From the NCBI RefSeq assembly GCF_004135205.1, contig NZ_CP035490.1, positions 3,861,501-3,925,500 of the forward strand: a DNA stretch of 64,000 nt, given 5' to 3'. Of this stretch, positions 10,449 to 49,730 are shown piece after piece. The translations under genes and the position numbers were made by a program. Under the pieces are notes generated by a model. That model was not told the DNA's origin, searched no databases, and saw only the letters and a program-made list of their open reading frames with translations. Source of the DNA: Hahella sp. KA22 (GTDB lineage: Bacteria; Pseudomonadota; Gammaproteobacteria; Pseudomonadales; Oleiphilaceae). Positions within the stretch are counted from its first letter, which is position 1. Each line of letters begins with the position of its first letter.

Positions 10449-11462
10449 ATGCTTCAGCGCACTCTAGCTCTAATGATATTCACTCTGCTTGCCGGATGCG
10501 GACAATCCGAACCTCAAAAAGCTGAACCTGAGGCTAATAATGCTCCTCAGTATTCTGAGGCTGAGGTTCAGAAACTTATCGATGTTTGTAAGAATCGGGG
10601 TGGAAATGCCCCGATGAAAGAACTGAATGCTTGTATAAAATTAAATAAATATAGTCATTTTCACACACTGGACTTGAGTAGGATAAAAATTGGAAAGTTA
10701 CCAGAAGATATCTTTGACGGGATGAGTCATATTCGGCAGTTGTTTCTCAATGAGAATTCAATTTCAGCACTTCCTGAATCAATAAAAGAGCTCGTTGATC
10801 TAAAAGTTATCACGTTGGATTGGAATAAGTTTGAGTCAGTTCCAGAAGAGTTGTTTGAGATAGATGGGCTTAGAGATATTTATATTTCCCATAATTCGGT
10901 AACTAAAGTTGATCAAGGTTTGAAGAATTCTAAAAAGCTTAGAAGAATTATTCTTTCATTTAACAAATTGGAAGAGTTTCCGACTGTGTTTTCTGAAATG
11001 CCTAATCTTAAAATTCTCGATTTGGCGTCAAACTCTATTTCGCGTGTGCCTAAACAAATAGGTGGTATGTCTAGTCTTATAGGGTTATCTCTGGCTGATA
11101 ACAAGGTAGAAGAGGTTCCTGAGGAGATTGGGGCGCTTTCCAACTTAACCATGTTGGATTTAAGTGCAAATAAACTAAAAACATTGCCTGTAACAATAGC
11201 AAGGCTTCCAAATTTGACTCAGCATGTAGAAGAGCATAGTGGGTTTGTGAATAATCTTACGGCGCTTGGTTTTGAGGAAGATGGAGAAGAAATATATGGG
11301 GTTTCTCTGCTAAAGGGATATCAAACAACACTGCCTGTCAGTAGATACTCAGGTATAAATCTTCTCTTTAATGAAGTTGCAGTCCTTGATAAAGAATTCT
11401 GCGATGTCTTTTTTATGAAACTGGACAGTAAAGTATCGGTTAATTGCAAAAAGATGTTTTGA
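10449..11462 (+). CDS. Leucine-rich-repeat lipoprotein (copy 1)
   Basis: The start at 10449 gives a lipoprotein signal (MLQRTLALMIFTLLAGCGQS, Cys17); an upstream in-frame start at 10374 is rejected because it would bury this signal. The 337-residue protein carries about eight leucine-rich repeats of 22-24 residues over roughly residues 70-255, such as LRQLFLNENSISALPESI and LTMLDLSANKLKTLPVTI. A conserved non-LRR C-terminal cap follows, with two Cys (FCDVFFMK and VNCKKMF). It is probably membrane-anchored and facing periplasm or surface, binding an unknown partner. The DNA is clearly AT-richer than neighbours. The next gene is a tandem duplicate. Confidence 0.8.
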   Translation: MLQRTLALMIFTLLAGCGQSEPQKAEPEANNAPQYSEAEVQKLIDVCKNRGGNAPMKELNACIKLNKYSHFHTLDLSRIKIGKLPEDIFDGMSHIRQLFLNENSISALPESIKELVDLKVITLDWNKFESVPEELFEIDGLRDIYISHNSVTKVDQGLKNSKKLRRIILSFNKLEEFPTVFSEMPNLKILDLASNSISRVPKQIGGMSSLIGLSLADNKVEEVPEEIGALSNLTMLDLSANKLKTLPVTIARLPNLTQHVEEHSGFVNNLTALGFEEDGEEIYGVSLLKGYQTTLPVSRYSGINLLFNEVAVLDKEFCDVFFMKLDSKVSVNCKKMF

Positions 11463-38252: not shown

Positions 38253-39599
38253 TTAGTGTTGGGCCAGGGATTGCAGTTGAGCCAAGGTGTCCGCCATGGA
38301 GCAGGGGGCGCCGTCATGCTGTCTCAGGAACTGGTTAATGGGTTCGATGGCCTTGATCGCGGCGTCGGCGAGCGGGTCCGTTCCCGGCTGGTATTCCCCG
38401 ATCCTGACCAGCAGCTCGATTTCCTTGTAGCGGGCCAATAGCTGCCGCAGCCGTCGCGCCTGTTGCAGTTGTTCCTGCGTGGCGATGTCATTCATCAGGC
38501 GGCTGCTGCTGGCGAGAATATCCACGGCGGGGAAGTGGCCGGATTCGGCTAAGGCGCGTGACAGCACGATGTGGCCGTCCAGAATGGAGCGTACTTCGTC
38601 CGCCACCGGCTCGGTCATGTCGTCGCCTTCCACCAGCACGGTGTAGAGCGCGCTGATCGCGCCTTTGGCCCCAGGGCCGGCGCGTTCCAGCAGTTTGGGC
38701 AGGGTGGCGAAGACGGTGGGGGGAAAGCCTCTGCGCGCCGGAGGTTCTCCCGCCGCCAGGCCAATTTCCCGCAGCGCCCGGGCGAAGCGGGTGACGGAGT
38801 CCATGAGCAGCAGCACCCGTTTGCCTTGATCGCGGAAGTATTCGGCGATAGCCGTGGCCACGTAGCCCGCCTTCACCCGCTCCATGGCGGGGCGGTCGGA
38901 GGTGGCGGCCACCACCACGGCGCGTTGCATGCCTTCTGCACCCAGATCCCGCTCGATAAACCCTCTGACTTCGCGACCGCGTTCGCCGATCAACCCGATC
39001 ACGACGATGTCGGCGTCCGTATGGCGGGTGATCATGGAGAGCAGGGTGCTCTTGCCCACCCCCGCCGCCGCGAACACGCCCATGCGTTGCCCCTCGCCAC
39101 AGGTGAGCATGCCGTCAATCGCGCGCACCCCGGTGGTCATGGGCGTTTCCACCCGTCTGCGGGTCAATGGGTTAGGGGAAGCGCTGATAATAGGATAAGG
39201 GACGCCGCTCGTCAGAGGCTCGCCGTCATCAATAGGCGCGCCCAGGCCGTCCAGCACACGCCCCAAAATACCCTCGCTGATCTGGATCTCATGGCTGCGG
39301 CCCGTGGGAATCACTTCGGTATGAGCGGACAAACCTTCCATCTCACTCAACGGCGTCAACAACGCCTCCTGCCTGGAAAACCCGATCACCTCCGCAAGAA
39401 TGGAACGCTGCGACTCCGGGTCCACCAACTCACAAATCTCACCGATCCGAACCCCATTCACAGACGCCTTAACAATCGTCCCCACCGCCTGCGTCACCCG
39501 CCCCCGCACCTGCGCAAAATCCGCCTGCTCCACCAACGACCGCAACAACCTGGCCCTGGACGCGGAAAACGCGCTATCACTGAAGACTGTCTGATCCAT
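38253..39599 (-). CDS. sctN: T3SS ATPase SctN (YscN)
   Basis: The ATG at 39599 ([11 protein letters not shown]) has AGGGTG upstream and is preferred to the GTG at 39623. The 448-residue ATPase is of the F1/FliI type: Walker [15 protein letters not shown] (Lys near 183), then [18 protein letters not shown], Walker [31 protein letters not shown] in outline, and the SctN region [32 protein letters not shown]. It unfolds substrates and releases chaperones. It leads the eight-gene sctN-U operon, whose promoter should lie in 39600-39861. Confidence 0.97.
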
Positions 39600-39861
39600 A
39601 GCATCCACACCCTGAAAAAACACCGCGAAAGCGGATTGATATTTGGTTTAGGGGCAGATTAGAGGGGGAGAGGGAGAGGCTGTATCAGCCGGGGGATCTA
39701 ATTTTTTTGGGGGCGCTGTAATAAGAAGTTCGCAGGATGGTTTAGATTTTTTAAGGTTGTCCTAATGATGGAATGTTGGCTCGTATCTCTTGTCAGAATA
39801 TGTTCGTATTCGACCAGAAGCAGACATTGAAATAAGTAAGCTGTCTCAGCATAGGTTTAAT

Positions 39862-40674
39862 CTAATCCTTAGCATCTACTAGGCAATCGTCATCATAGGC
39901 CAGAAGAGTGTAGCTGAAGCCCTCATTGAGGAGAATTGAGCTGTAATAAATTGTAGATAAACGTCCATGTTTTGAATAAGGGTTTACCCAGTCTATGGCA
40001 TCAGCTTCGTCAAAATCAGTAGGATGGTTTTCAGTTCTCACATCGGTAAGGCTTGTTTGTTGTTCCCTTGTAAGTGGGCTTGGCTCTATGAAATAGGCAA
40101 AGTCGTTCATAGACACAAATCTTATAAACTGCCCGTTTTGATGAATGATTAATGCCGAAGGTGATTTACTGGAGTAGGCCATTTTCCTGTAGGTGGCTTC
40201 CAAAGATGCCTCACAAGCTCTGGAAACAATATCAATATTTGACCAATTGATATCTCCGTCCGTCAGCTTAGAGATTAATTGTTGAGGTATTAATAGCCCC
40301 GATGCAAAACCGTTCGCTTCTTGTTCGATGGGATCATTGAACTGATTCGATAGTTCTTTTGTTCCACATTCGAAAGAGTACTTTACCATGGGCATAATGT
40401 GCATACATACATGCCCTAGTTCGTGGGCTGCAGTAAAGTTTAGCCTGCCTGGGTCGGGAATATTAGAATTGATGTAAACCAAAGCACCTTTGCTGTTCCC
40501 TTCTGCGCGACCGAGAATTTTATCGGAGTCGAAGGAGTGAAGCTCCATGCTAAGTTTGAAATCATCTGAGTGAATAGACCGGGCGACATCAAACGGTCGC
40601 ACCGGCAGCGTATCGTACCCGAGGTCCTCTAATAAACTTTCGGCTTCTGCGATTCCTTTCTGAATTTGTATCAT
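39862..40674 (-). CDS. ImmA/IrrE-family metallopeptidase
   Basis: The 270-residue protein has a zinc-protease motif TAAHELGHVCMH (H84, E85, H88) and the third-ligand helix IEQEANGFASGLLIP (E119), the classic ImmA/IrrE layout. Such peptidases cut their partner XRE repressor to turn on a stress or mobile-element response. The start overlaps the end of the upstream XRE gene by 4 bases (ATGA), so the pair is co-translated. It sits next to the divergent ubiquitin-like operon and probably controls it. Confidence 0.9.
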   Translation of the reverse strand: MIQIQKGIAEAESLLEDLGYDTLPVRPFDVARSIHSDDFKLSMELHSFDSDKILGRAEGNSKGALVYINSNIPDPGRLNFTAAHELGHVCMHIMPMVKYSFECGTKELSNQFNDPIEQEANGFASGLLIPQQLISKLTDGDINWSNIDIVSRACEASLEATYRKMAYSSKSPSALIIHQNGQFIRFVSMNDFAYFIEPSPLTREQQTSLTDVRTENHPTDFDEADAIDWVNPYSKHGRLSTIYYSSILLNEGFSYTLLAYDDDCLVDAKD

Positions 40675-41030
40675 TTTTTGGTCATCTTCCTTAGTCGTTC
40701 CGCCATACTGATAAGCATTTCCTGATCGTCTTTGCTCAACTCCTCAAGCATACCCCATTTACGGTGGAAAGCCCGGGTCTCTTCATCTTCTAGCGAGACA
40801 GTATCCGCGATTTCTCCTGTAATTTCGTGCACGGGAACCTTCAGCGCTGACGCAATTTTTCTCAGGACGACAATGGTAGGTATCCGCTTTTCACCTTGCT
40901 CAATTTTACTTAAGGCGGCGCCAGTAATACCGGCTTCCTCCGCAAGTTTAGCCTGCGTCCAATTGATAGAAGATCTTAACCGCTTGATATTACTGCTAAT
41001 AATTGCAGCTTGTTGTCTCTTGTCACTCAT
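40671..41030 (-). CDS. XRE-family transcriptional regulator
   Basis: The 119-residue protein has an N-terminal Cro/C1 helix-turn-helix (IKRLRSSINWTQAKLAEEAGITGAALSKIEQGEKRIPT in outline, residues 14-50) and a charged helical tail. It is the likely repressor, inactivated by the ImmA-like peptidase encoded next. The AGGAG ribosome site upstream of the ATG lies inside the first of four TTAAC-N4-GTTAA palindromes, so it should control its own synthesis. Confidence 0.93.
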   Translation of the reverse strand: MSDKRQQAAIISSNIKRLRSSINWTQAKLAEEAGITGAALSKIEQGEKRIPTIVVLRKIASALKVPVHEITGEIADTVSLEDEETRAFHRKWGMLEELSKDDQEMLISMAERLRKMTKK

Positions 41031-41033
41031 TTT

Positions 41034-41132
41034 TTAACTCCTGTTAATAAGAATTTTAACACCCGTTGACATTTGTGCCTAGGTGAATGATTATATTAAC
41101 CGTGGTTAATATTTTGTCGTAACACATGTTAA
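41034..41132. promoter_or_regulatory. Four-site operator TTAAC-N4-GTTAA between XRE and Ubl genes
   Basis: Four copies of one palindrome lie in the divergent gap: TTAACTCCTGTTAA (41034-41047), TTAACACCCGTTGA (41056-41069), TTAACCGTGGTTAA (41096-41109) and GTAACACATGTTAA (41119-41132). Centres are 22, 40 and 23 bases apart, giving two symmetric pairs about two helix turns apart. A TTGACA (41066-41071) on the + strand and a TATAAT (41095-41090) on the - strand overlap the sites. This fits binding by the XRE protein as a repressor of both sides. Confidence 0.8.
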
Positions 41133-41290
41133 TGGGGCGGGATGGCAATAATTCCACCGAAAAGTGATGAGCATCAACGAAGCAATCATCAAGGCATTAC
41201 GAGTTACGCGAATAAGGACGTTTCTTTAATGTAAAGATCTCGTCCAAGACAACGTTCAAGGTCATTCGTAAAGAAGAGTGAGGAAGTGAA

Positions 41291-41539
41291 ATGAGTAGTG
41301 AAGAATCAAACCGCCCCGAGTTGTTCATCGACAATGAGCGCTTCGACTGGGACAAGGACGTCATCACCGGTGCAGAACTGCGAGAGTTAGGCTCATTGCC
41401 AGACGATGTAGAGATCTTTTGGAAGGTGCCGGGTCAACCTGATGTACCCGTTGAGAATGAAAGGGTCATTAACCTTACTGAACATCCAGGTCCAGACCGC
41501 TTTTCAACCCAATCCGTTGGTTCTCAAGCGGGGGCATAG
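41291..41539 (+). CDS. Ubiquitin-like modifier (multiubiquitin-type beta-grasp)
   Basis: The 82-residue protein matches the prokaryotic multiubiquitin domain pattern: LFIDNERFDWDKDVITGAELREL, then LPDDVEIFWKVPGQ, then ENERVINLTEHPGPDRFST in outline, a single beta-grasp unit. It is the presumed modifier of the operon. The C-terminus is SQAGA without a terminal Gly-Gly, so it must be trimmed by the JAB domain or joined in an unusual way. GAGGAAGTGAA precedes the ATG. Confidence 0.85.
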   Translation: MSSEESNRPELFIDNERFDWDKDVITGAELRELGSLPDDVEIFWKVPGQPDVPVENERVINLTEHPGPDRFSTQSVGSQAGA

Positions 41540-41543
41540 AGAT

Positions 41544-41948
41544 ATGCCCATACTGCTGGACGAAGATTATAAAGAGATGGAAGCGCAAGGTTTTTCGTAC
41601 ATTGAGGACGAAGCCCTGCGCTTTTTGGTCTTGACGGACTACAAGCTACCGAAAGGCATTTACGATCACGAACTGTGTGATGTATTGATAGTCATTCCCA
41701 ATAATTACCCGCAAGCAGGTAATGACATGTTCTGGACAAACCCCAGACTGTCTCGCCTGGATGGGAAGCTGATCCCCGCGACCAACAATATGGGGGGCAG
41801 TGACAACAGGATGTTTCAGGAAAAGGAGTTTTGTCGCTGGTCCAGGCATTGGCACCATGGAAAATCTGTTTGGAGACCAGGTGCAGATGGCATTGAAACA
41901 ATTTTGAGGAGAATTGACTGGGCGCTTCGGAGGCCAGACGCAAAATGA
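41544..41948 (+). CDS. E2-like ubiquitin-conjugating protein (prokaryotic E2 family)
   Basis: The start at 41544 (MPILLDEDYKEM) is 4 bases after the Ubl gene. The 134-residue protein has a UBC-like core with ELCDVLIVIPNNYPQAGNDMFWTNPRL, resembling the E2 strand-and-Pro region, and the block EKEFCRWSRHWHHGKSVW with Cys97 as the best candidate for the thioester residue. It fits the predicted Prok-E2_E group. It overlaps the E1 gene by 4 bases (ATGA). The catalytic assignment is inference. Confidence 0.82.
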   Translation: MPILLDEDYKEMEAQGFSYIEDEALRFLVLTDYKLPKGIYDHELCDVLIVIPNNYPQAGNDMFWTNPRLSRLDGKLIPATNNMGGSDNRMFQEKEFCRWSRHWHHGKSVWRPGADGIETILRRIDWALRRPDAK

Positions 41949-43393
41949 ATGCAGCAAGATTAACATTACTTGGCTCCCAGCATAATGAGCTAGTAAATTA
42001 CTTTGAAAAACCTTCAAAAGGAGAGGAGCGAGCGGCCATAGTGCTATTCCGCAGACTTCATATCAATGTGGATGGCTTGCCGGACTCGGACCGCTTTATT
42101 GCCCAAGACGTGATACCTTTTGATAAAGCGTGGATTAATAGTAGCTCCCCCTCCCATGTTGATTTCAAACTAGCTCCATTAAGGGAGGTATTTCGGAGGT
42201 GTGAAGAAGAAAAACTAGTTTTTGGCTTTGTCCACAACCATCCCGAAGGACCAAATGAGTTTTCAATCAAAGATGACGACAACGAAATAACTCTGTTAAA
42301 AGCGATCAGCAATCGGAATGGTAAAGACATTACTTTCGTAGCAATGCTCTGGACTAAGAGTGGATGGAAAGCTCGTGTCAGAGCAGCAGCTTTGCCAGAG
42401 AAAGCCCTCCCCGTTAGACACACGTTAGTTACGACCGACCCTCTGAAAATCTATGGTTATCGGGAAAGCAGTGAAGACCACTCCGAAATACATAAGCGGG
42501 GAGCCACTGCATTCGGTCAGCCTTTTGTAGATATGCTGCAATCCTTGCGTGTCGGCGTGGTCGGTACAGGAGGGACTGGCAGCCCCTTTGCCACATTGGG
42601 GGCACGAGCTGGTATTGGCGAGCTTGTATTGATAGATGGCGATGATCTGGCATTGAGCAATCTCAACCGAGTGAGAGGCCTGAAAAGAAATGATGTCGGA
42701 AAAAATAAAGCCAGCAAACTAAAAGATTTTATTGAAGATATTGGTGTGTCCGTGAAAGTCGGAGCCTACGAGTCAATAATTGATTCTGACCCCAAAGCGT
42801 TAGATGCGCTTGCTAGCTGTGATGTGGTTGTGGGCTGTACGGATGACTTTGTTGGCAGGGACGTGATGAATATAGCCATCTATGCTTATGCTCAACTATA
42901 TATCGACCTCGGTCTTGGTGGACGAATCATGGATGATAAGAGAGGTCAACCTGTACTTCGTTATCATTTTGGCCGGATCAGTACCATTCTACCTGAAAGT
43001 GGGGAATGCCTTTTTTGCCAGGGAGTTATTCATGAAAAGTGGATACAGACCCAGCTTCTAAAGCGTGAAAACCCTAACTTAACCAAAGAAGAGTTAAAGG
43101 AAAGATATCTTGAAGATGGTGGCGAAGAGGCCCCCGGTGTTGGACCTTTTACCAGCGCCACAGCAGATTTTGCTCTAGCAACGCTGTTTGATCTGATTAA
43201 GCCGTATCGGCGTCGGCCCCCTGAACTTCGTAGAGATATGATTCAGATCGATTTTGTGAATATGGAGCTTAGCAGCCGCCAGACTAAATCCAATAATGAA
43301 TGTCCGTATTGTAGGCAGCGGAAATTTTTATTAATGAAAGAGACTTACAGACTAAAACGGCCTGTATTAGGAAAGCGTGATGAGTATATTTAA
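41945..43393 (+). CDS. JAB isopeptidase-E1 (ThiF) fusion protein
   Basis: In this 482-residue fusion, residues 1-150 are a JAB/JAMM metalloprotease domain: FVHNHPEGPNEFSIKDDD gives H97, H99, S107 and an Asp, with Glu27 or Glu28 as the upstream acid. Residues 190-460 are a ThiF/E1 adenylation domain: GVVGTGGTGSP (207-212 glycine loop), LIDGDD (D231), LSNLNR (R242), and VVGCTDD near 300. Zinc knuckles CLFC (355-358) and CPYC (453-456) frame the C-terminus. It can therefore process the modifier and activate it, or remove it from targets. The E1 catalytic Cys is not certain (Cys292 or Cys298). Confidence 0.9.
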   Translation: MNAARLTLLGSQHNELVNYFEKPSKGEERAAIVLFRRLHINVDGLPDSDRFIAQDVIPFDKAWINSSSPSHVDFKLAPLREVFRRCEEEKLVFGFVHNHPEGPNEFSIKDDDNEITLLKAISNRNGKDITFVAMLWTKSGWKARVRAAALPEKALPVRHTLVTTDPLKIYGYRESSEDHSEIHKRGATAFGQPFVDMLQSLRVGVVGTGGTGSPFATLGARAGIGELVLIDGDDLALSNLNRVRGLKRNDVGKNKASKLKDFIEDIGVSVKVGAYESIIDSDPKALDALASCDVVVGCTDDFVGRDVMNIAIYAYAQLYIDLGLGGRIMDDKRGQPVLRYHFGRISTILPESGECLFCQGVIHEKWIQTQLLKRENPNLTKEELKERYLEDGGEEAPGVGPFTSATADFALATLFDLIKPYRRRPPELRRDMIQIDFVNMELSSRQTKSNNECPYCRQRKFLLMKETYRLKRPVLGKRDEYI

Positions 43394-43808
43394 AAGAATA
43401 GTCAGTTGGTTAGAGGGACTATTTAGCCTAGCGGAAACGGAGCACGCGCCCAAGCGATCATTACCCCCCGTTCATTTCGCTTGCATAACCTCCGTGCAAA
43501 AACCGCCAAAGAATAAAGACATCGAGGAAAAAACATTTTATTACGTCACCACATCTGGAAAGCCAAAATGGGCCTTATTCCTGTGTCCGTGTGGATGTGG
43601 AGATGTCATCACCTTATCGCTACAGGAGGTTCATACTCCTAGTTGGAAACTGACAAAAGCTGTTTCTGGACACCCAACACTACAACCTTCCGTTTGGCGT
43701 GACAAAGGATGCTTAAGCCATTTTTGGTTAAAGGAAGGGCGTGTATTCTGGTGCCCGGATACCGGCACTCATCCAGATTTGAGGAGGGGAAGAGTCACTT
43801 CGGTATAG
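43380..43808 (+). CDS. DUF6527 putative zinc-binding protein of Ubl operon
   Basis: The start at 43380 has AGGAAAG upstream; it overlaps the E1 gene by 14 bases. The 142-residue protein has a hydrophobic/basic N-terminus and a Cys-rich core LFLCPCGCGDVITLSL, then HPTLQPSVWRDKGCLSHFWLKEGRVFWC, with Cys and His placed for one zinc site. DUF6527 proteins are typical last genes of these bacterial Ub-like operons. Their role (substrate binding or ligase-like) is not established. Confidence 0.82.
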   Translation: MSIFKRIVSWLEGLFSLAETEHAPKRSLPPVHFACITSVQKPPKNKDIEEKTFYYVTTSGKPKWALFLCPCGCGDVITLSLQEVHTPSWKLTKAVSGHPTLQPSVWRDKGCLSHFWLKEGRVFWCPDTGTHPDLRRGRVTSV

Positions 43809-44181
43809 TTAAACTTAAAGCCTTGTTCTCATAGGTATATCAAGTCAAATCCTACCTTTGAAAATTGGCGAGAACTCTAAGATCAAAAATCGATCTACCG
43901 CTAATATGGTATCGGCTTAATATAATGTAAATTCAAGATGCGTCCAAAACTACTTAATGACGTAAAGAGAGGCAATCATTGAGTTTGGTGAGTGTAGTTG
44001 TTTGTTCGTAATTTTTATTTTGTGCTGATTGTATTTTGTTTTTAATATACTTTTCTGAAATCTGTATCGTAAAACTATTTCGTGAGTGTTTATTATGGAT
44101 GAGTTTGTTGCAAAAGTAAGTTCTCTGATAGTTCCAGGTGTTTCATTTACTCTGCTCATGGTGGTTGTTTGTTTGTTCTGG

Positions 44182-45012
44182 TCAAATCCCACCGGACACT
44201 TTCTTTAGAGAATTTTCATAATTAACCGGCGACATATCATTGTTCGCCGTATGCAGTCTTTCGAGGTTGTAATATCTCATGTAGGCTGCGACATCCTGCT
44301 TCATGTGTTCCCGGGTGGGCTGGGGGATTTTGAATATCCAGTCATGCTTAAGACTCCCAAAAAAGCGTTCAACCACCGCATTGTCCCAACAGGCTCCCAC
44401 ATCGCCCATACTTGCCCTGATTTCATACTTTTCCAGTAGTTTTCGATAATGTCCGCTGGTGTACTGAGAGCCTCGGTCACTATGGAATACCAAGCCCTTG
44501 GGCGGCTTCCGCAAATTATAAGCCTTGATCAGCGCCTGGCTGACCAGGCTCGTTGTCATGCGCTTGTCGATGCGCCACCCGACGATCCTTCGGGAATATA
44601 AATCCATGACAATGGCCAGATACATCCAGCCTTCCCCTGTTTTCAGATAGGTCACGTCGCCAGCCCAAACCTGATTGGGCGTTGTAGGATTAAAATTCTG
44701 ATTCAACAAGTTATCCGCCACCGCATGATGGTGTTTGCGCCTTGTAGTGGGTTTGTAAGCAACGCGTTGCGTGACCTGAAGACCAAGCCGCCTCATGAGC
44801 TTGCGAACCCGGTAGCGTCCCACCTGAAAGCCTTCTTCGCGTAGCTTCTTCATCATCTCTCGACTGCCCAGACTGCATCGAGAAGCTTTAAACAGTCGCT
44901 TCATTCGCCGATGCAGGTGAAGCTCATCAAAATGGATCACCGGCGCGGAGCGCCGACGCCAGGCATAGAATGCTGATCGACTTGCACGCAGAGCCCGGCA
45001 AAGCACTTTCAC
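44182..45012 (-). CDS. IS3-family transposase OrfB (copy 2)
   Basis: The 276 residues are identical to copy 1, with the same DDE motifs (VWAGDVTYLKT, FHSDRGSQYTS, VVERFFGSLKHD). Because orfA of this copy is frameshifted, the fused transposase probably cannot be made here, although the copy could still be moved by the product of copy 1. Confidence 0.95.
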   Translation of the reverse strand: MKVLCRALRASRSAFYAWRRRSAPVIHFDELHLHRRMKRLFKASRCSLGSREMMKKLREEGFQVGRYRVRKLMRRLGLQVTQRVAYKPTTRRKHHHAVADNLLNQNFNPTTPNQVWAGDVTYLKTGEGWMYLAIVMDLYSRRIVGWRIDKRMTTSLVSQALIKAYNLRKPPKGLVFHSDRGSQYTSGHYRKLLEKYEIRASMGDVGACWDNAVVERFFGSLKHDWIFKIPQPTREHMKQDVAAYMRYYNLERLHTANNDMSPVNYENSLKKVSGGI

Positions 45013-45049
45013 AGGGAAGCGATTCGACTCTGCTTGAATGAAGGCGAAC

Positions 45050-45340
45050 TTTATTTCATTTCTTTCGCGAAGAAGGCCGAAGCCTTTTTTAGAATTTCCT
45101 TTTCCATGCGCAGCTCTTTGTTTTCTTTGCGAAGCCGTTTTAACTCGGCGCGCTCGTCTTCAGCCAGAACCTGGTTTTCAAGCTGGCTTCAATTTTTTCC
45201 TTCCACTTGTAGAGCATATTGGCGCTAATGCCGAGGGATTTAGCCGCTTCTGGGACGGAATAACCTTGGTCGCGCACCAAGGAAACGGCCTCTTCTTTAA
45301 ACTCTTTTGTATACTGTTTATACGACCTTTTCTGACTCAT
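45050..45340 (-). pseudogene. IS3-family transposase OrfA, frameshifted
   Basis: The first 52 residues match OrfA of copy 1 (MSQKRSYKQYTKEFKEEAVS). One missing C near 45186 then sends the frame into ASLKTRFWLKTSAPS and a stop. The rest of the orfA DNA, including the A6G slip site, is present downstream. Either a true loss of activity or a sequencing error is possible. Confidence 0.85.
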
Positions 45341-46465
45341 GCTGACACCTTAATCGTTGACGGGTATTGTCTCTTATTAATGTGTCCGGGACTATTAGAC
45401 CACTACAGTTGGTTTCGGTCGAGATCGGGTACATCTTATGGTGTATTAAGTCGGCTGTATTCAATGATTACTGGAAAGAAAGGGTATTATGATGACTCAC
45501 TTGAAATCTTTTCAAAAGAACAAAAAGATATTGAACGATTCAATACGGAATTCAAATTCAGGGCTAAATCTTTAAAGGATATCAGCCTATTTAAGCATTG
45601 GCTTGATGTCCATGATATGGATATGCGTAGGTTCTCTAAGCTTAGAGGATTTTTTGATCTCGAAAAGAGGAAGATTTACAAAGTCAAAAGTAGATTGATT
45701 GTTGCGCAGATTTCTGCTGGCTCTTTTGCTTACATTTTAGCATTTGTTTTTCTTTCTTTAGCCATGTCAGACTCTGCCTTACTTAAGTTTAAGGGTGAAG
45801 AACAATGGTTGTGGCTTAATCATGAGAATGCATCAAGTGTTAATATTCTTCTACCTTTTAATAGTGCTGCTCGACAGTGGAATATTACAAAAGAAGATTG
45901 TGCTAAGCCAAGTTTTGATTTGAAGTCACTCTCTGCAACAAGTATGCTTAGTGAGGAAAGTGTCAGCGTAGTCTGTGAATCTTTTAGCAGCTCTGAAGAT
46001 ATTAATAGAATTGACAATGTCATTGATGAGCAGTGGACGCTTGGGATTATATCGTTTTTATCTTTAATGATTATCTTCCTTTACCTTTTGCGCGAGATAG
46101 TAAAAGGTGCTGACGCCCTAATGGGAAGAAAATACTTATACCGTAGATTAAAGAAGGCTCGGCTAAGACGCATCTTATAGACTTCTGCAAAAAGTCTGCA
46201 ATATCAAATGAGAGCCCTTGACGTAAAACACGATAGTTTTGCTTATTCAGTTTACGCCGAGTTCATGCGGCGTGTATTTTTAGAATGCTTTTGATGCAAG
46301 CCTCCCACACTCCCAGAGTGGAAATGTGTTGGGAGAATTGCGGATTTTTGGTGTACTTTTATCGGATAGCTGAGTTTTATTTTTGAACAGTGTTTTGTTT
46401 ATCCGGCCTGTTTGGTCATCAGGTCGTCGGTGGGGTTCAACACAACAATACAAGTGAGGGTACGT

Positions 46466-46867
46466 ATGAATCTGGATAAAGATATTGTGACGGTGAGGCC
46501 GGAGGGGACGATTGATACGATTCAGAAGTTGCCTAATTATTTGGGAATTTCCGGGAAAACGGCGGGTTCTACCGGGATTTCGATGAATATTGTGGTGATT
46601 CCGCCTTCGGCGCGGGCGGAGCCGCATTTTCATGATGGGTTTGAGACGGCGATTTATTTGCTGAAGGGGAATGTTAAGACCCTGTATGGCGAGAATTTGT
46701 CGAAGTCGGTGGTGAACAAGGAAGGGGATTTTATTTTTATTCCTGACGGGGTGCCGCATCAGCCGATCAATCTGAGTGATACGGAGGAGGCCATTGCCTT
46801 GGTGTCCCGTAATGATCCCAATGAGCAGGAGAGTGTTCAGGTGTATCGGCCGGATCAGTCGGCTTGA
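46466..46867 (+). CDS. Cupin-domain protein
   Basis: The start at 46466 (MNLDKDIVTVRPEG) has GTGAGGG upstream. The 133-residue single-domain cupin has both metal motifs: PPSARAEPHFHDGFETAIYLLKG (motif 1, with His, His and Glu) and GDFIFIPDGVPHQPIN (motif 2, with the final His). It probably binds a divalent metal; the function (small-molecule binding, isomerase or dioxygenase) cannot be assigned. It lies between the second island and the MITE, and has no partner genes on its strand. Confidence 0.82.
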   Translation: MNLDKDIVTVRPEGTIDTIQKLPNYLGISGKTAGSTGISMNIVVIPPSARAEPHFHDGFETAIYLLKGNVKTLYGENLSKSVVNKEGDFIFIPDGVPHQPINLSDTEEAIALVSRNDPNEQESVQVYRPDQSA

Positions 46868-46902
46868 TGGGTATTGATTGATATGGCGACCAGGGATAAG
46901 AA

Positions 46903-46929
46903 ACAGGGCCTGATTTACGCGGGCCCTGT
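46903..46929 (+). terminator. Hairpin after cupin gene, possible terminator
   Basis: ACAGGGCC and GGCCCTGT form an 8-bp stem with an 11-base loop, 36 bases after the cupin stop. The T-run after it is weak (CCTTGT), so termination is plausible but not certain. A similar ACAGGGCCTG hairpin is part of the multi-hairpin repeat further right. Confidence 0.5.
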
Positions 46930-46970
46930 CCTTGTCAGGCTGTCATTTTAACACTGCTTGTCTGTTGGAA

Positions 46971-47117
46971 TAAGGAGCCTCTGAAAAACGTTGGCGAGGC
47001 CGTCAGGGCAAGGAAAAAGTCGGCGAAAAAGCGCAGTTTATCGAGAATAAATGAGCATTTTGAGCCGACTTTTGACGCCGCAATGGCGGCCGCAGGTAGT
47101 TTTTCAGAGGTTCCTTA
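46971..47117. repeat. MITE-like element with 19-bp terminal inverted repeats (copy 1)
   Basis: The element has ends TAAGGAGCCTCTGAAAAAC and, in complement, TAAGGAACCTCTGAAAAAC, with one mismatch over 19 bases. Length is 147 bp with no coding capacity. A truncated copy lies at 28549-28655. Short, non-coding and with inverted ends, it fits a miniature element mobilised by a transposase outside this window. No clear target duplication is visible beyond the TTAAT-like ends. Confidence 0.8.
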
Positions 47118-47119
47118 AT

Positions 47120-47264
47120 ATTAATATGGCAATGATATTGACATGGTAATATCTGGCGCATGGATGCGCCTGCGCGGCGGAGAGCCGCGGGAGACAGGGC
47201 CTGACATGTGCAGGCCCTGTCGTTGCAGACAAATAGAAGGAAGCTATTTGTCTGCCTGATTAAT
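47120..47264 (+). repeat. Multi-hairpin repeat element (copy A)
   Basis: This 145-bp block is repeated, inverted, at 60472-60617. It consists of consecutive palindromes: ATTAATATGG...TAAT, GGCGCAT/ATGCGCC, CGCGGC/GCCGCG, GACAGGGCCTG/CAGGCCCTGTC, and GCAGACAAATAG/CTATTTGTCTGC. The last bases cover the stop codon of sctV (47260-47262). A REP/BIME-like folded element or a transcript-stabilising 3' structure is likely. Confidence 0.8.
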
Positions 47265-49350
47265 AGCTCAGCGCGATCCTTCCCAGCGGCTGAATGGTGA
47301 TTTCCGGCGTCAGGTCCTGGTAGGAGAGTATCGGCAGTTGGCGCATGTCTCTTTCCAGTAGTTTGCGCAGGTAGCGGCGCACGTCCATGGAGGTGATCAC
47401 CACGACTTTTTGCGCGCCGGGATTCAAGTCGCCCACGGTGCGTTTGGCGATGTCCACGATCTTGCGGGTGGTGTCCGGCTCCAGGGCGAGGTAGGCGCCG
47501 GAGGAGGTCTGGCGCACGCCGCCGCGAATGGCGTCTTCCAGAGACTGATCCAGCATATACGCCGGCAGGATATTCTGCCCGTTGCTGTATTTGTAGCTGA
47601 TATAGCGACGCAGGCTGTTGCGCACGTACTCCGTCAGCAGCACGGTTTCCTTCTCTTTCTGACCCCATTCCGCCAGGGCTTCCAGAATGCTGCGCAGGTT
47701 GCGGATGGAAATGTCTTCTGACACCAGACGCTGCAGTATTTCGGTGATTTTCTGAATCGGTAGCAGGCGCTGCACCTCCTTCACCAGCTCCCCGTAGCGT
47801 CCTTCCATTTTCTCCAGCAGAAAGCGAGTCTCCTGAATGCCGATGAACTCCTGCGCGTACTTTTTCAGGATGATCGACAAGTGATAACTCAACACCCGAG
47901 GCGGGGTCAGATAGGCGACTTCCATCTTGTCCAGCGAGGTCTGATGACGTTGTTCCACCCAGTAGGCGGGGGCGTCGGGCAGCAGTTCCACTTCACTGTT
48001 ATGCTCGATGGCCAGCAGATCCAGTTGCTCCTTCTGATCGCGCACCAATAACTGCCTGGGCTTGATAAAGCCTTCCGCAATCGGCGTTTCCTGCAGATGA
48101 ATCTTATAGCGGCCGTCGCTCAATCCGTGATTGATGCGCAGATGAATGCCCGGAAACGGCACGCCCAGGTCGAGATACAGGGAGCGGCGGATTTTGAGAA
48201 TCTCCTCATTCAACGCATTCGGGGCCAGGGCGTCTTCCGCGTCGGCGGCAATGTCCACCAGCAGCGGGACGGTAAAAGTAAACTCTTCCGCTTCGTTGAG
48301 CTGCGCCTTGCTCGGCGGCTGGCCGGCGGCCGCCATGGCGGACAGTGGAGGATGCTTGTCCGCGCCAGCGTTTTTGGATTGCCGGAGCGTGAACACGCCA
48401 ATGCCTGTCAAGGTTAACGCCAGCACGATAAAGGTGAGGGTGGGGAAGCCTGGAATCAGCGCGAAGGTGAACAACAGACCGCCGCCGATCAGGATAGCCT
48501 GGGGCTTGCTGACGATCTGATTGGCGATGTCCGCGCCCAGGTTTTCCGACTCGTCGGTGGTGACCCGGGTGACGATGACGCCAGCGGTGATGGCGATAAA
48601 CAACGCGGGAATCTGCGCCACCAGTCCGTCGCCGATGGTGAGAAGGGCGTATAGCTCCAGGGCTTCGCCGGAAGTCATGCCGTTTTGCAGCGTGCCGATG
48701 GCGACGCCGCCGAGGATGTTCACCGCGATGATGATCAGGCCGGCAATGGCGTCGCCTTTCACGAACTTCATGGCGCCGTCCATGGAACCGTACAGCTGGC
48801 TTTCTTTCTGCACCTGAGAACGGCGGTGGCGGGCTTCGTCCACGTCGATGACGCCTGCGCGCATATCGCCGTCGATGCTCATTTGTTTGCCGGGCATGGC
48901 GTCCAGCGAGAAACGGGCGCTGACTTCCGCCACCCGTTCCGAGCCCTTGGTGATCACCAGAAACTGCACCACAGTGATGATCAGGAAGATAACCAGCCCC
49001 ACCACCAGATTGCCGCCCACCACAAAGCCGCCAAAGGCCTCGATGATGGAGCCCGCGTCCGCCTGCAGCAGAATCAGTCGCGTGGTGGTGATGGACAGCG
49101 ACAAACGAAACAGCGTCGTGATCAACAAGACAGAGGGAAAGGCGACGAACTCTAGCGGCGAACGTAGATACACCCCCACCATCAGCAACACCACCGCCAG
49201 CCCCATGTTGACGCCGATCAGGATATCCACCAGCACCGTGGGCAAAGGCAGAATCATCATGAAGATGATCGCCACCAGCATGGCGGCGAACAGAATGTCT
49301 TTGCGCCCGGCGATTAATTGCAGGGTCTGGTTCAGGCGTGCGAGGGTCAT
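47260..49350 (-). CDS. sctV: T3SS export-gate protein SctV (YscV/LcrD)
   Basis: The start at 49350 ([13 protein letters not shown]) overlaps sctY by ATGA; a longer frame runs inside upstream genes. The 696-residue protein has about eight transmembrane segments in the first 330 residues. The FHIPEP-family signature includes [21 protein letters not shown] in outline, and the large cytoplasmic domain binds chaperone-substrate complexes. It forms the nonameric gate ring. It is last in the sctW-to-sctV operon. Confidence 0.97.
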
Positions 49351-49730
49351 GACGGAGTCCTTGTGGCTAAGAATTGCAGATAGTGAGTCAGCGCGGGCTC
49401 CCTTTGTCCCAGCTTGAGATGGCAATGGCTGCGCAGCAGCGACAAGCGCGAGTCCGACGCGCCCTGTAACCGTTTCTCGCAGGCCTTGCAGTACTTCAAC
49501 GCCAGTTCGTAGCGGTCGAGCTGATAACACAGATAAGCCATCTGTCGCAGCGGCGCGGGATCGTCCGGCGCCAGTCTGATCAGCAGACGCAGCAGCGGTT
49601 GCGCCTTGGCGTACTGACGGCATTGCAGAAACACGGTGGTCACCTCCTGCAGCCAGGCCGCCTGCTGCGGTTGCAGTCTGCTCGTGACGCTGGCGAGTGG
49701 AAGCGGGGCGACGGATTGAGTTGGTCTCAT
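49347..49730 (-). CDS. sctY: T3SS chaperone SctY (YscY)
   Basis: The start at 49730 ([10 protein letters not shown]) overlaps sctX by 4 bases. The 127-residue TPR-like protein has repeats at [46 protein letters not shown] and [16 protein letters not shown]. YscY is a chaperone that binds SctX and the gate SctV; the pair is found only in Ysc-type systems. Gene order sctX-sctY-sctV is the classic one. Confidence 0.88.

Follow-up and report, generated by a model that had tools for sequence, protein, structure and literature searches.

Gene content of the locus

The 64,000-nucleotide window analyzed here comes from Hahella sp. KA22 (contig NZ_CP035490.1), and its positions 39862 to 43808 are filled by six open genes, two on the minus strand and four on the plus strand. 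We describe them as a bacterial ubiquitination-like (Bub) operon with a divergent regulatory pair of the CapH+CapP kind. The genes, with E values for their matches, are:

39862..40674, minus strand: ImmA/IrrE (M78) metallopeptidase, CapP-like, 270 aa (Pfam Peptidase_M78, 2e-12; best PADLOC match capP, 4.5e-40; PDB 7t5t CapP, 1.9e-11)
40671..41030, minus strand: XRE-type repressor, CapH-like, 119 aa (Pfam HTH_3, 6.9e-14; best PADLOC match capH, 1.7e-14)
41291..41539, plus strand: BubA-like ubiquitin-like (Ubl) modifier, one domain, 82 aa (Pfam Multi_ubiq, 9.7e-6; PDB 9d59, 5e-8)
41544..41948, plus strand: BubB-like E2, 134 aa (Pfam Prok-E2_E, 3.3e-35; family profile to BubB 9eae, 7.9e-38)
41945..43393, plus strand: BubCD-like fusion (JAB-E1) of an N-terminal JAMM and a C-terminal ThiF/E1 domain, 482 aa (Pfam ThiF, 2.7e-30; family profile to BubCD 9ea4, 2.2e-124)
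43380..43808, plus strand: DUF6527 protein, 142 aa from the ATG at 43380 (Pfam DUF6527, 4.8e-22)

The plus-strand genes are tightly packed, with a gap of 4 bases between Ubl and E2, an overlap of 4 between E2 and JAB-E1, and an overlap of 14 between JAB-E1 and DUF6527. The ImmA and XRE genes overlap by four bases, and the pair is divergent from the Ubl operon. An original prediction, made from the letters of this DNA, had described just such a packed operon with divergent XRE-ImmA control, and all six genes are present as arranged there; the interval that it gave (40671 to 43808) takes in the operon and the XRE gene and leaves the ImmA gene outside. It had also set the cassette between sctN and sctV inside a type III secretion system (T3SS) locus, and these genes do lie on either side of it, at 38253-39623 and 47260-49623. 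G+C content is 55-67% in the flanking T3SS genes versus 36-54% over positions 39,500-47,000.

Identification as a Bub operon

Judged by its sequence, the operon is Bub and not merely Bub related. Single-sequence searches of the PDB matched JAB-E1 to Citrobacter BubCD (4.4e-17) and the E2 to BubB (5e-10), and the much stronger match of the JAB-E1 family profile to BubCD spans positions 4-469 of 471. The Ubl is closest to the multi-ubiquitin protein 9d59, with BilA (8u38) weaker at 6e-4, and the DUF6527 family profile matched no solved structure in the PDB. Membership of the E2 and Ubl families, which the original prediction had proposed, was upheld by the domain searches listed above, the Multi_ubiq score of the Ubl lying above the Pfam cutoff (26.1 versus 24.5 bits). 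One domain score, that of the JAB part, is weighed further below; the remaining Pfam matches of the four plus-strand proteins have E values between 1e-5, for the Ubl, and 3e-35, for the E2, and because of these and the JAB-E1 profile match to BubCD (2e-124), the identification goes beyond chance.

A plasmid of Enterobacter roggenkampii (locus L032) carries CapK and CapS, under accessions studied in PMC13373217, and then multiubiquitin, ThiF, and DUF6527 genes homologous to the window operon. In PMC13373217, this capKS locus is Bub associated in the text and CBASS (cyclic oligonucleotide-based antiphage signaling system) associated in the legend of figure 1C; its gene content agrees with the text. 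It is from the matches of JAB-E1, E2, and Ubl to Bub proteins, together with the L032 gene order, that we assign the operon to Bub. The kinship to Bub- and Bil-type operons that had been suggested thus stands for Bub, sharpened from a relative to an actual member.

The operon type is already known, having been described as "type 6e" in a 2006 survey (PMC1779556). In that account, the type has a JAB domain joined to the N terminus of the E1, up to three Ubl domains (at least one), an E2/RWD-like protein between, and a zinc-finger-like protein, and the window operon resembles it in this makeup; a solo Ubl, as in the window, is recorded there for one species. Its metal signature, C-x3-C-x(35-38)-H-x2-C, fits the window's C-x3-C-x37-C-x2-H (C69-x3-C73-x37-C111-x2-H114 of the DUF6527 protein) in spacing, with the last two residues swapped. 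Section 14 of the survey, where type 6e is treated, does not mention XRE-ImmA.

Citrobacter Bub (BubA, BubB, and BubCD; PDB 9ea4, 9ea5, 9ea8, 9eae, and 9eav) and Enterobacter L032 have the JAB-E1 fusion, the WSRH E2, and the multi-ubiquitin Ubl in common with the window. L032 also resembles it in having DUF6527 downstream and a damage-type regulator upstream. It differs in that its E2 carries three fused Ubl domains, whereas the window has a single-domain Ubl and a separate E2 gene, in that its regulator is CapK+CapS rather than CapH+CapP, and in that the JAB-E1 proteins are only 23% identical.

Two other systems, Bil (bacterial ISG15-like) and type II CBASS with Cap2/Cap3, combine E1/E2-like conjugation with a JAB deconjugase, as is predicted for the window operon. 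Bil is marked by an E2 with a catalytic cysteine and a BilA-type Ubl. We rejected membership of Bil, there being no conserved cysteine in the E2 family and a Ubl nearer 9d59 than BilA, and membership of type II CBASS, as the fusion partner of the window E1 is JAB, unlike in Cap2, an E2-E1 fusion. No CD-NTase was found among the proteins scanned at 39865-46864 (nine with Pfam and six with PADLOC, part of the open reading frames [ORFs] there), and the PADLOC E1-E2 models match only the ThiF part of JAB-E1.

A CapH+CapP-like pair and candidate operators

CapH+CapP, a helix-turn-helix repressor with a peptidase, was first named with CBASS. The XRE and ImmA/M78 proteins of the window are related to this pair by their PADLOC matches and by the PDB match to CapP, and they share with it the arrangement of overlapping repressor and peptidase genes divergent from an operon. 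They differ in standing beside a Bub operon and not a CBASS operon. The peptidase has its HExxH motif at residues 84-88, with H84, E85, and H88 present in 19/19 rows. CapH+CapP beside Bub has already been published: according to PMC13373217, 219 of 544 Bub operons adjoin CapW or CapH+CapP, and the window operon adds one more example. The same source reports that single-stranded DNA (ssDNA) activates CapP, which cleaves CapH; by analogy, we infer repressor cleavage and an ssDNA response for the window pair.

The intergenic region between the XRE and Ubl genes holds the following features:

41034-41047, 41056-41069, 41096-41109, and 41119-41132, no strand: four palindromic operator candidates, TTAAC-N4-GTTAA, two exact and two with one mismatch
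41066..41094, plus strand: promoter-like TTGACA-17-GATTAT, from a consensus scan, 10/12 matches, the best in the region

With up to one mismatch allowed, TTAACN4GTTAA has four matches in the whole window, all of them between these two genes. It is their clustering within 99 bases, and not their number, that is unusual, because 5 of 100 whole-window shuffles reached a total of four, while among 100 shuffles of the sequence between the two genes, not one reached four copies of any such palindrome. All four candidates are kept in Sedimenticola (L002), one with a symmetric change in the spacer. Candidate 2 overlaps the -35 element of the promoter-like site and candidate 3 directly follows its -10 element; the promoter scan was near chance overall (11 found versus 7.6 expected, standard deviation 2.9). 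Repeated palindromes, with two to four copies of one, occur in 6/14 divergent intergenic regions (the window, L002, L038, L044, L045, and L048), a level reached by at most 1 in 100 mononucleotide shuffles, and their half-sites vary between lineages.

An ImmA match was present in 18 of 27 distinct loci including the window, that is, in 17 of 26 relatives; the models were built from the collected loci, and a match anywhere in the stretch examined was counted. Among annotated plasmid loci, an ImmA/IrrE peptidase lies near the operon in 13 of 18, these being hand-picked, mostly from the top of the list, out of 127 matching plasmid records. A Jiella plasmid operon (L039 1741-7094) has an XRE-ImmA pair on both sides.

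Mobility and distribution

The boundaries of the cassette are drawn from comparison with Sedimenticola:

39851..43852, no strand: cassette as a unit, ending 11 bases beyond the ImmA stop and 44 beyond the DUF6527 stop

Two Sedimenticola loci (L002 and L003), identical to each other over 21,446 bases, share this block with the window (DNA identity, 85%); beyond it, a blastn search with a threshold of 1e-5 found no match between the window and either locus. A third (L004) shares 39847-43417, the match ending about 100 bases before the end of the contig; in that locus, an internal stop interrupts the JAB-E1 gene (10823-10825). Since the whole block, XRE-ImmA included, is conserved in Sedimenticola, the pair travels with the operon. 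Both the linkage of XRE-ImmA to the operon in relatives and the mobility of the cassette had been proposed beforehand, and both hold. The Hahella host and Sedimenticola belong to different orders, and the cassette appears to have been acquired horizontally and transferred as a unit. In Sedimenticola, the neighborhood of the block includes relaxase and NikA-like genes and others that are weakly ParA-like.

Of 369 genomes of the class, six, the host's own included, have a JAB-E1 relative with an E value of 1e-20 or better. Within seven genomes of the genus, a close JAB-E1 occurs only in the host's own; G005 has a separate, distant Bub operon with 28% identity. Protein searches matched 127 of 72,556 plasmid records. 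In 88 of these, the match extends over 80% or more of the query, and some weak ones are plain ThiF proteins; a DNA search of the 4-kb block against plasmids returned only a 4% piece. Neighbors on plasmids include a restriction endonuclease and a SAVED protein (L042) and an anti-phage dCTP deaminase (L046). A mainly phage-borne system was considered and rejected: tblastn of JAB-E1 against 50,697 phage records gave two matches, covering 24% and 18%. A profile scan of viral contigs gave two partial loci. On one viral contig (L056), an ORF with HELGH, as in ImmA (by eye), adjoins a shortened JAB-E1. A recurring neighbor of Bub operons is a DUF2188 protein, seen in Rhizobium phaseoli (L041 3037-3264) and, weakly matched, in Bradyrhizobium quebecense (L033 6715-6960).

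A variable slot between sctN and sctV

Comparison with sibling genomes delimits the slot in which the cassette lies, and locates defense-type genes in the corresponding slots of three siblings:

39710..46430, no strand: variable slot between sctN and sctV, with a conserved cupin gene (46412-46867) on the right
L027 9623-11293: OLD-like gene in the slot of G001
L028 4279-6670: DRT8 pair in the slot of G004
L029 9848-12405: PDC-M01 pair in the slot of G006

Four of the seven genus genomes (the host's own, G001, G004, and G006) carry close sctN and sctV, at 93-100% amino acid identity. They agree on the left up to nearly one point (39706-39717) and resume similarity on the right at or just before the cupin gene (46326 or 46437). 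The host's own slot contains CapP-CapH-Bub, an IS3-type insertion sequence (IS), and a DUF6216 gene that has no PADLOC match. That of G001 holds a Y1 transposase and an AAA protein that, among PADLOC models, matches Old best (1.5e-20) and has a TOPRIM match just under the Pfam cutoff; that of G004, the DRT8 pair (1.1e-146 and 7.5e-72); and that of G006, two genes that match PDC-M01, a PADLOC candidate (4.5e-243 and 5.4e-113). Slot genes thus match PADLOC models in 3/3 close siblings, and the OLD-like, DRT8, and PDC-M01 genes each occur in one of the seven genus genomes (threshold, 1e-60). In the more distant G002 and G003, no PADLOC match was seen in the ORFs scanned (5/12 in L030 and 2/11 in L031). 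sctN was not found within the 16.5 kb examined in G003, and G005 has no close sctV.

The junction therefore looks, from these gene contents, like a slot for defense cassettes. No integrase was seen in the scanned ORFs of the slots, two of which carry transposase genes. We also rejected the idea that the left edge is a repeated attachment site, as a search for its 21-base sequence, allowing up to three mismatches, gave a single occurrence in the genome. We regard this shared landing slot as the freshest result; among the papers listed by a literature search on T3SS loci, Hahella, and defense hotspots, none concerned such a slot, judged by titles and the beginnings of abstracts. A bolder view, that the junction in this genus swaps self-regulated immunity cassettes at a fixed left edge, probably by recombination in the conserved T3SS flanks, with Bub as the CapH+CapP-induced, serine-relay, anti-phage member, is tentative, and we would give it somewhat less than even odds.

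Active-site residues

In the E2 family, W99, S100, and H102 are invariant in 27/27 rows, S100 lying within the motif WSRH. The original prediction had named Cys97 as the active site, which is probably wrong. That cysteine occurs in 3/27 rows, namely, the window and two Sedimenticola rows, and glutamine takes its place in 22/27 and in Citrobacter BubB. Given S100 in every row versus C97 in three, the nucleophile is most likely Ser100. (The 27 rows omit L003, identical to L002, and L006, the same place as L050; here as for the other proteins, the rows are not independent, L002 and L004 being closely related.)

The JAMM residues of JAB-E1 (E28, H97, H99, S107, and D110) are conserved in 27/28 rows, the 28th being a C-terminal fragment without the JAMM part, and the ATP-site residues (G207, G210, D231, N239, R242, K255, and D300) in 27 or 26 of 28; there are 28 rows here since the internal stop splits L004 in two. 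Of its cysteines, only C298 (GCTD strand) and those of two CxxC pairs, 355/358 and 453/456, are conserved across 19 aligned sequences, and a classical E1 thioester is thus unlikely.

In 25/26 Ubls, a glycine lies ten residues past a Phe/Leu with which the last Ubl domain ends; as the anchor for this register we took a Phe/Leu close to the domain end and preceded by a residue that is basic, acidic, Ser, or His. (Rows L003, L006, and L004 and three wrong-frame or cut ORFs were dropped.) This glycine is the last residue in 7 of the 25, is followed by one to eight residues in 7, and is followed by a fused E2 in 11. The window and Sedimenticola Ubls have a single residue, Ala82, after Gly81. From such residues beyond the glycine we predict a trimming step, with Gly81 as the mature C terminus.

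Other features of the locus

One further feature lies within the cassette:

41142..41281, plus strand: relic of a 57-aa gene with a broken frame, which is open in the Sedimenticola counterpart (L002 9163-9336), by sequence comparison

In Sedimenticola, the gene for this 57-aa protein, which belongs to no Pfam family, stands between those for the regulator and the Ubl; in Methylomagnum (L044 5732-5911), a homologue directly follows DUF6527. It is possibly an accessory Bub gene. To the right of the cassette, the IS3-type element (about 44190-45380), which has five full-length copies in the genome including this one, is apparently inserted in the DUF6216 gene, whose remainder is at 45038-46180. 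A repeat resembling a miniature inverted-repeat transposable element, with 19-bp inverted ends, lies at 46962-47117; further copies or parts occur in the genome, and a copy stands in the sibling locus L028 (6691-6836), at the sctN side of the slot.

Proposed mechanism and function

We propose that the operon serves stress- or phage-induced protein modification. With XRE/CapH bound at the four TTAACN4GTTAA sites that surround the promoter, the operon would be kept off. DNA damage or phage infection would give rise to ssDNA, upon which ImmA/CapP may cut the repressor, as reported for other CapH+CapP pairs. Removal of a single residue from the Ubl, plausibly the work of the JAMM domain, would then expose Gly81, and the ThiF domain, with its ATP site intact, would adenylate Gly81. 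JAB-E1, which has no conserved catalytic cysteine, might hand the Ubl straight to the E2, where it would form an oxyester with Ser100, as the conservation pattern suggests. Serine-relay conjugation in Bub, with serine as the catalytic E2 residue, was reportedly found by Ye et al. in 2026, and the oxyester step agrees with it. Finally, the Ubl would be joined to targets, perhaps (speculatively) chosen with the zinc-binding-like DUF6527 protein, and the JAMM domain would reverse the attachment.

Taken together, we put the probability of an acquired Bub operon, under CapH+CapP control, in a sibling-variable defense-type slot at roughly 78%. Several points weigh against this picture or its parts. 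The JAB part of JAB-E1 scores under the Pfam cutoff (18.1 versus 25 bits), and 9 of 26 relatives have no ImmA match in the stretch examined. Palindromic operators as a general Bub feature must be rejected, as 8/14 divergent intergenic regions are without them. The AlphaFold models of the E2 and DUF6527 proteins, made with the window and Sedimenticola rows only, are unusable (mean predicted local distance difference test scores of 43.8 and 38.8). As for function, Iyer et al. (2006; PMC1779556) judged the E2 family catalytically inactive because of the missing cysteine, and PMC13373217 states that phage protection by Bub operons has yet to be demonstrated.

With regard to purpose, we lean slightly toward anti-phage defense. 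The strongest alternative, which we hold to be a little short of an even chance, keeps the same Bub operon and control and gives it a general role in DNA damage or stress, with the slot merely collecting accessory genes. The discussion in PMC13373217 allows Bub as an immune or a global stress pathway, and CapH+CapP senses damage rather than phage. Moreover, the slot also holds an IS and a DUF6216 gene without a PADLOC match, as are the slot genes tested in the distant G002 and G003. Against this stand the PADLOC matches in all three close siblings, the JAB-E1 relatives in 88 plasmid records, each matched along 80% or more of the query, and the several plasmid loci beside defense-type genes (L042 and L046). 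Improbable, in our estimate, is that the operon is decaying cargo, functionless in this genome: the 57-aa upstream ORF is broken and the neighboring DUF6216 gene apparently interrupted by an IS, yet all six main genes are open, catalytic motifs are intact, and the four operator candidates are retained. Least probable of all is a classical thioester on Cys97, gained in this lineage, since that residue, three before the invariant serine in the window and both Sedimenticola rows, is glutamine in most rows and in BubB, Ser100 and His102 are invariant, and the E1 has no conserved catalytic cysteine.

Returning to an acquired, CapH+CapP-controlled Bub operon in a defense-type slot, we note that Bub as an immune system is an open question in the field (PMC13373217). 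Because the complete cassette, with repressor, peptidase, promoter-like site, and operator candidates, recurs in Sedimenticola as one 4-kb block and sits where three siblings carry defense-type genes, it is a natural minimal unit for a phage-challenge test, in which E2 Ser100, JAMM H97/H99/D110, and Ubl Gly81 are singled out as the residues of interest. More broadly, T3SS gene junctions are places to look for defense genes.

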